From positions 1 through 34,739 of the forward strand of contig CANRNO010000009.1 in the NCBI GenBank assembly GCA_947632065.1: a stretch of 34,739 nt of DNA, given 5' to 3'. Shown piece after piece: positions 19,846 through 21,692 of this stretch. The stretch's first letter is position 1, and every line of letters starts with the position of its first letter. The stretch comes from an uncultured Bacilli bacterium. Its GTDB lineage: Bacteria; Bacillota_I; Bacilli_A; RF39; UBA660. The notes below the pieces were generated by a model. It was not told the origin of the DNA, made no database searches, and worked only from the letters and a program-made list of their open reading frames with translations. The position numbers were made by a program, and so were the translations under genes.

Positions 19846-20406
19846 ATGAAAAAGTTAATGATAGATTTAGATGATACTATATGTACAGATGGATATTTGA
19901 AAGTATTAAATGAATATTTTAATACAAATTATACATATGAAGATTTAGATGATTACTATGTAGAAAGTTTAGTACCTGATGATAGACTTGATGAGTATTT
20001 AGATTATTTTTATACTATAAATGTTTATGATTATGTTGATGTGGTTCCTAATGCGATAGAAGTTATTGAAAAGCTTTCTAAAAAGTATGATGTTTATATT
20101 TGTAGTGCTTATGTTGATAGAAGAAGACCTAAACTTAGTGGAGTTGCGGCAACATTAAAACATAATTGGATAATTGATAATTTACCATTTATTGATCCTA
20201 AAAAAATAATTTTTACTGGAACTAAAGATGTGATTGCTTGTGATATAAAAATAGATGATAAATATTCTAATTTAAAAGGTTATGGAGATGTTAAATTATT
20301 ACTTGATGCATATCATAATAGAAATTATGATGAGGAAAAATTAAAGGAAAGAGGCATAAGACGTGTTAAGGATTGGAAGGAAATAGAGAAAATATTATTA
20401 GATTAA
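19846..20406 (+). CDS. 5'(3')-deoxyribonucleotidase-like HAD phosphatase
   Basis: MKKLMIDLDDTICTDGYLKVLNEYF, VYICSAYVDRRRPKLSG, KHNWIIDNLPFIDPKKIIFTGTKDVIACDIKIDDKYSNL. Confidence 0.75.
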   Translation: MKKLMIDLDDTICTDGYLKVLNEYFNTNYTYEDLDDYYVESLVPDDRLDEYLDYFYTINVYDYVDVVPNAIEVIEKLSKKYDVYICSAYVDRRRPKLSGVAATLKHNWIIDNLPFIDPKKIIFTGTKDVIACDIKIDDKYSNLKGYGDVKLLLDAYHNRNYDEEKLKERGIRRVKDWKEIEKILLD

Positions 20407-20407
20407 T

Positions 20408-20487
20408 AAAAAAAGAGCAGTAGTCCATTTGGACTAGTGCTCAATCTATATACAGGGGATCTTCACATTAATTAGTGAACCTTCCCC
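20408..20487 (-). ncRNA. candidate minus-strand small RNA (two hairpins, 3' intrinsic terminator)
   Basis: Minus strand reads GGGGAAGGTTCACTAATTAATGTGAAGATCCCC, linker, GAGCACTAGTCC-AAAT-GGACTACTGCTC, TTTTTTT; a 12-bp stem with one mismatch and 7 Us. No T-run follows either hairpin on +. Confidence 0.5.
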
Positions 20488-20596
20488 ATTCATATAATAT
20501 GTAAAATGGGTAAAAAAATACTTATTTTTTTATTATTTTTTGTAAAAGTTGATATAATATAAATATAAAATCTTAAATTAGAAATGGGGAGTTGTT

Positions 20597-21692
20597 ATGG
20601 ATATTAATGAGCTTAGAGATAATTTATATAATGTAGAGAAAAAATTAAAAGAATTATGGAGGTCTCTTTGACTGTGACAATAAAGAAATAAAGATAAAAG
20701 AGTTAGAGAGTGAAGTTAATAAAGTAGATTTTTGGGATGATAAAGAACATTCTTCAGAGGTATTAAAAAATATTAGTGAACTTAAGGATATTGTTTATAC
20801 TATTAAAAAGTTATCAACTAAAGTAGAAGAAGAATTAGAATTAATTTCTTTATTAGAAGAAGATGCAGATGAAGAACTTGAAAATAGTATTTTAAATGAT
20901 GGAGCAGTTTTACTTAAAGAATATGAACAAGTAGAGTTACTTCTTTTATTAAACGGAAAGTATGATAAAAATAATTGTATTGTAGAAATTCATTCTGGTG
21001 CTGGGGGAACTGAAGCATGTGACTGGGCAGATATGCTTTATCGTATGTATACTAGATGGTGTTTAAGTAAAAATAAAAAAATTGAAGTTTTAGATATACA
21101 AGATGGAGAAGAAGCTGGTATTAAGAGTGTTTCCTTTTTAGTTAAAGGTGTTTATAGTTACGGATATTTAAAAAATGAAAAAGGTGTTCATCGTTTAGTT
21201 AGAATATCTCCATTTGATTCTAATAAGAGACGTCATACTTCTTTTGCATCCGTTTCAGTTACTCCAGAAATTGATAAAAATATAGAATTAGAAATTAATG
21301 ATAAAGATTTAAAAATAGATGTTTATAGATCTTCTGGATGTGGAGGACAAGGAGTTAATACAACTGATTCTGCGGTTAGAATTACACATCTACCTACTGG
21401 GATTGTTGTTACTTGTCAAAATGAGAGAAGTCAGATTCAAAATAAAGAACAAGCTATGAAAGTTTTAAAGAGTAAACTTATTATTTTAGAAGAAGAGAAA
21501 AAAGAAAGAGAACTTTCTAATATAAAAGGAAATCAACTTAATATAGATTTTGGTTCTCAGATTAGAAGTTATGTATTACATCCTTATAAAATGGTTAAAG
21601 ATCATAGAACTAATGTTGAGACTAGTAATGTTACAAAAGTTTTAGATGGTGATATTGATTTATTTATAGAGTCTAATTTAAGGAAAGGGTGA
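20597..21692 (+). CDS. prfB: peptide chain release factor 2, programmed +1 frameshift
   Basis: ATG 20597 frame reads to TGA 20669-20671 in ...TGG AGG TCT CTT TGA C; +1 shift continues DCDNKEIKIKELESEVNKVDFWDD...SGAGGTEACDWADML...RSSGCGGQGVNTTDSAVRITHLPTG. Confidence 0.96.
20656..20672 (+). promoter_or_regulatory. prfB programmed frameshift signal
   Basis: GGAGG SD-like element, TCT spacer, slippery CTT followed by TGA C. Confidence 0.93.

Follow-up and report, generated by a model that had tools for sequence, protein, structure and literature searches.

The 34,739-nt stretch of DNA analysed here (the window), from an uncultured RF39 bacterium, carries two hairpins between a nucleotidase-like gene and prfB, and these raise the question of whether they belong to a neighbouring gene or constitute a gene of their own. 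The original prediction was of an orphan small RNA on the minus strand. Judged from sequence, positions 20487–20408 of the minus strand hold a genuine small RNA gene that had not been catalogued before and that is conserved within a single clade of uncultured gut bacteria. The features of the locus are as follows.

19846–20406, plus strand: nucleotidase-like gene, convergent with the RNA (ORF list; not conserved beside the RNA in relatives).
20408–20487, minus strand: small RNA of ∼80 nt (covariance models R1 and R2; single copy; 5′ end at 20487 placed from promoter spacing, 3′ end at about 20408).
20408–20442, minus strand: intrinsic terminator, comprising a hairpin (20415–20442) and a U7 tract (20408–20414) (sequence; 61/64 relatives).
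20443–20454, minus strand: linker UGUAUAUAGAUU (alignment; loci L333–L336).
20455–20487, minus strand: 5′ hairpin with AGG/GA internal loop (fold; alignment of 40 distinct sequences).
20492–20501, minus strand: −10 element CATATTATAT (clade form CATANNNTAT), sporulation sigma-E/K type (64 distinct loci).
20514–20521, minus strand: −35 element GTATTTTT (clade consensus GTATATT; own-genome pattern match 20493–20521; 63 aligned promoters).
20597–21692, plus strand: prfB (release factor 2), divergent neighbour (sequence).

Both hairpins lie in the 20408–20500 gap, as predicted, and the order proposed for the minus strand was confirmed: 5′ hairpin, UAUAGAUU linker, then a terminator stem with one mismatch and seven Ts. 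The 5′ hairpin (20487–20455) reads GGGGA-AGG-UUCAC, a loop of 8 nt, then GUGAA-GA-UCCCC. The terminator hairpin (20442–20415) is GAGCACTAGTCC-AAAT-GGACTACTGCTC, with a single C-C mismatch, and is followed by TTTTTTT at 20414–20408. On the plus strand, as had been stated, the terminator hairpin is not trailed by a T-run but continues into AATCTATATAC. Folding energy on the minus strand had a z-score of −5.2 (0/200 shuffles were equally good), and on the plus strand one of −6.7. Because the plus strand folds as well, the strand is not set by folding alone; a T-run on one side only, together with the promoter and the pattern of conservation, sets it. The linker is predicted to be only partly unpaired, with a mean unpaired probability of 0.41, which counts against its pairing in trans. 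A K-turn was considered for the internal loop, which we take not to fit one. The RNA is present once in the host genome, and a repeat element was rejected on this ground.

Relatives of the RNA carry the marks of selection on structure. An alignment of 40 distinct sequences has 99.5% of the stem cells of the 10-pair 5′ hairpin paired, and four pairs show changes on both sides, a number reached in none of 500 shuffles; the covariation for which the original prediction had asked is thus present. In the outer stem the double changes are G-C/A-U, and in the inner stem A-U/G-C/U-A and U-A/A-U, the last coming from one diverged sequence. The covariation is real but modest, since the outer stem is for the most part invariant. 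At 61 of 64 loci the linker is followed by a hairpin of −6 kcal/mol or lower with a T-rich tract, as compared with 1.3% of shuffles, and under a looser hairpin definition its arms occur in 54 different versions; such drift of sequence under a constant function is what marks a terminator. The linker core AUAGAU is identical throughout the 41 sequences of the alignment, among them the diverged form of genus g5 (L333–L336), which combines a GAGGAACCAAAAAACGAAGGUUGUUUUGUUCCUC hairpin and an unchanged linker with the same promoter type and divergence from prfB. A small peptide was rejected: the window copy holds a 15-codon frame, which loop indels and stop codons break in the aligned relatives.

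The 5′ hairpin and linker were found by BLAST of 98 genomes in seven beyond the host. A covariance model of this portion (R1) detected one copy each in 20 of the 195 genomes of the host's family. A second model (R2), which adds the −10 region and includes one diverged member, found single copies in 37 of the 385 genomes of the host's order, three of them diverged g5 members absent from model building. A pattern scan of named genomes returned at least 118 stretches, and R1 accepted 53 + 29 of these, that is, at least 82 contigs, at 49 bits or more. Among the matches listed, the accepted contigs are almost all gut metagenome-assembled genomes labelled Bacilli, Bacillales, Tenericutes, Erysipelotrichaceae or similar, and Candidatus Onthousia faecavium is among the carriers. 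Pattern matches in Streptomyces and other unrelated organisms scored below 20 bits or not at all with R1, and a phage origin was rejected because the two viral-contig matches failed the covariance model. In a PrfB tree built by a quick method, all 22 sampled carriers fall on one side of a branch with support 92, as against 27 non-carriers, these being model-negative genomes among which very diverged copies could escape. Carriers thus form one clade in this tree, and a single change suffices to explain the distribution. For the window and six related loci, Rfam gave no family over the RNA at gathering cut-offs and, at E-values up to 10, sub-threshold matches of which none was credible, in agreement with the original failure to recognize a known family; a literature search found no description of the prfB-adjacent RNA. 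Elsewhere in the window, at 142–174 on the plus strand, an L31-Firmicutes ribosomal protein leader (RF03156, 37 bits) lies upstream of the L31 gene.

The position of the RNA is nearly constant on one side and variable on the other. Among the matches listed, 50 of the 53 named loci have a divergent prfB and none has prfB in the same direction as the RNA; in 46 of the 53 the prfB N-terminal match lies 171–241 nt from the RNA. At L052, L077, L076, L059 and L069, prfB is ∼800 nt or 4 kb off, or not found in the stretch, and the RNA and its promoter persist; at the last three the RNA is no longer beside prfB. The adjacency is therefore probably an inherited position rather than a requirement. Past the 3′ end, the nearest gene comes from a wide range of families; at 57 of 61 loci it is convergent, and a same-strand downstream gene occurs in only four of the 61. 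The convergent, variable 3′ neighbour and the divergence from prfB indicate that the RNA is neither a leader, which the original prediction had already doubted in the case of prfB, nor the 3′ UTR of the nucleotidase gene. A ribosomal-protein leader was ruled out on the same evidence. What was found is a free-standing unit, with its own promoter (63/64), its own terminator (61/64) and no coding sequence. In the window, prfB itself carries the classic +1 frameshift site of prfB autoregulation (AGG...CTT TGA C, 20666–20672), because of which the ORF list gives only the downstream part of the gene (21033–21692).

Ahead of the RNA, 63 of 64 distinct loci carry CATANNNTA at a distance of 14–15 nt from the stem (0.3% in shuffles), with a GTATATT-like −35 about 20 nt further upstream, giving the consensus GTATATT-N13-CATANNNTAT; CATA and TA are in place in 63 of the 64. 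The TATTAT box at 20494–20499, originally taken as −10-like, is real, but is only part of the longer conserved CATATTATAT (20501–20492). The −35 had been called poor, and it is indeed not sigma-A-like, but a conserved −35 of a sporulation-type promoter exists; the original prediction missed this promoter, and also that the RNA almost always diverges from prfB. In genus g5 the −10 is CATACACT or CATAAACT. The Bacillus subtilis sigma-E −10 consensus is CATACAHT, which we take CATACACT to fit. Relative to CATA, a G occupies −20 in 53 of 63 aligned promoters, −18 to −16 is mostly ATA, with −18/−17 mostly A/T, and C at −17 occurs in none of the 63. ATA in the −35 is a hallmark of sigma-E, sigma-K using AC (PMC3789822), and sigma-E promoters combine it with a CATA-type −10 (PMC3789822; PMC517825). 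Both sigma-E elements are present here, by motif; the AC of sigma-K is not, and the −10 is common to the two factors, so that sigma-K appears less likely than sigma-E.

Other genes of the clade served as controls. spoIVA and sigK carry CATANNN-type −10s. In the ssp genes, which are controlled by sigma-G in other bacteria, the element is CACAWTCTAT, and the RNA does not follow this pattern, having CATA where ssp has CACA. The ssp upstream regions (L233–L253) are very uniform, with a sigma-G-like GTAT-N16-CACAWTCTAT usable as a clade-specific marker. When parts of three genomes were searched with the promoter matrix, genes for LysM, collagen-like, YqfQ-like (below the Pfam cut-off) and rubrerythrin proteins were among the best look-alikes upstream of protein genes; their scores fall far short of those of the promoters of the RNA itself, and unrelated genes appear in the list too. 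In the host genome, total matches to the promoter pattern were about as many as with a reversed-pattern control, and the RNA was one of two clearly intergenic matches. The second intergenic promoter-like site in this genome, GTATATAT...GCATATAATA (L198; G000 C1:103147–103176), is followed by a TTGACA/TATAAT promoter.

The hosts carry the corresponding sporulation genes. The host genome encodes SigE adjoining SpoIIGA, plus SigK; SigE and SpoIIGA score below NCBI equivalog cut-offs, yet are the best matches and lie side by side. SpoIVA and SASP genes are present in all 20 R1 carriers of the family set, but SpoIVA occurs in 171 of the 195 family genomes, so its co-occurrence with the RNA is not discriminating. 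SpoIIIAA (TIGR02858), sought as a sigma-E control, was not convincingly detected in the 20 carrier genomes, which, beside SpoIVA and SASPs, suggests a reduced sporulation set. RF39 bacteria are predicted to sporulate with altered regulation, markedly unlike their relatives (PMC10868615). The prfB-adjacent RNA is, on the evidence of its promoter and hosts, probably a spore-formation RNA.

The promoter, the compensated structure, the linker, the sequence-drifting terminator and the restriction to a single clade all support the orphan minus-strand gene originally proposed. We favour, with fair confidence, a free-standing RNA of the mother cell, most likely under sigma-E, the linker of which would act in trans. 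A mother-cell sigma factor, sigma-E more probably than sigma-K, would direct RNA polymerase to initiate at about 20487 from GTATTTTT/CATATTATAT, and transcription would end at the terminator after 20415, freeing a structured RNA of ∼80 nt. The stable 5′ hairpin may protect or present the RNA, and UAUAGAUU, perhaps together with the AAGG strand of the internal loop, would pair with its candidate targets, most likely a single sporulation mRNA or a small set of them. A search of ∼40% of three genomes for exact complements of the linker close to start codons showed no enrichment over control and no conserved ortholog pair.

The main functional rival to mRNA pairing is protein binding: a structural RNA would serve as decoy or scaffold through its AGG/GA internal loop. 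The negative target scan speaks for it, as does the alignment, in which the 5′ hairpin and internal loop are less variable than the apical loop; the g5 form, however, retains the outer stem and linker and lacks the AGG/GA loop at that position, and we regard protein binding as possible but doubtful. A broader proposal, which we think unlikely, is that the RNA, gained once and kept by 22/22 sampled descendants, is a clade-defining mother-cell RNA and forms an integral part of the control of a reduced sporulation programme, working in a mode other than mRNA pairing, e.g. protein binding. The same small RNA might instead be transcribed by housekeeping sigma-A during growth and have nothing in particular to do with sporulation, as the promoter is AT-rich and contains, in 59 of 64 loci, TATATT or TATTAT, one mismatch from TATAAT. 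Yet the first −10 position is strictly C, CATA-N3-TA is kept in 63 of 64 loci, TTGACA is absent (most promoters match it at three of six positions) and several loci have weak sigma-A hexamers, e.g. CATAGGATAT and CATATGCTAT; transcription by sigma-A is thus improbable.

Two further explanations would tie the locus to its neighbours. The RNA or its promoter could act in cis on prfB, for instance if divergent transcription adjusted prfB expression during sporulation, as the recurrent divergent arrangement and spacing noted above would allow. The RNA and prfB do not overlap, however, the RNA and promoter persist where prfB is distant or not found in the stretch, and carriers form one clade, so that adjacency may be inherited; we consider such action rather improbable. 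Little credence can be given to the view that the hairpins serve only the nucleotidase gene, as its 3′ UTR or as a bidirectional terminator. The terminator hairpin does lie directly past its stop codon, but the plus strand has no T-run, and the convergent genes come from many unrelated families beside a promoter, hairpin and linker that persist. A sporulation-linked, trans-acting RNA of the mother cell remains the reading that we prefer.

The RNA is compact and unusually well conserved, and it occurs in uncultured gut bacteria that carry spore genes. The covariance model and promoter marker are ready for use on gut metatranscriptomes, without cultivation. Few sporulation small RNAs are known to us, and hardly any with a proven late-stage role. 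By its promoter motif, the RNA is a new family within a kind already known, from a group with predicted divergent sporulation regulation (PMC10868615).

Three comparisons place it among the sporulation small RNAs. CsfG, a small non-coding RNA of Bacillus and other endospore formers, is under sporulation sigma control, and its target is unknown (PMC9147052). Both are conserved small RNAs of spore formers with sporulation-type control, here by promoter motif, but CsfG is forespore-specific and depends on sigma-F/G, whereas the prfB-adjacent RNA has a mother-cell-type promoter, is shorter and differs in anatomy; going by the description of CsfG the two would be distinct, and the present RNA matches no Rfam family of any kind. 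Bvs196 of Bacillus velezensis is a sporulation-specific, independently transcribed RNA with reported mRNA binding (PMC9147052), and shares with the present RNA, as read from sequence, a sporulation-type promoter of its own; it differs in being a 294-nt forespore RNA under sigma-F/G, as compared with ∼80 nt and a sigma-E/K-type promoter. The B. subtilis yocG-yocH intergenic RNA (sigma-E) and SurC (sigma-K) are both mother-cell small RNAs (PMC9147052), and by promoter motif the prfB-adjacent RNA belongs to the same mother-cell sigma-E/K class. Compared by description, they have other hosts, whereas the prfB-adjacent RNA was found only in one mostly uncultured clade of gut Bacilli.
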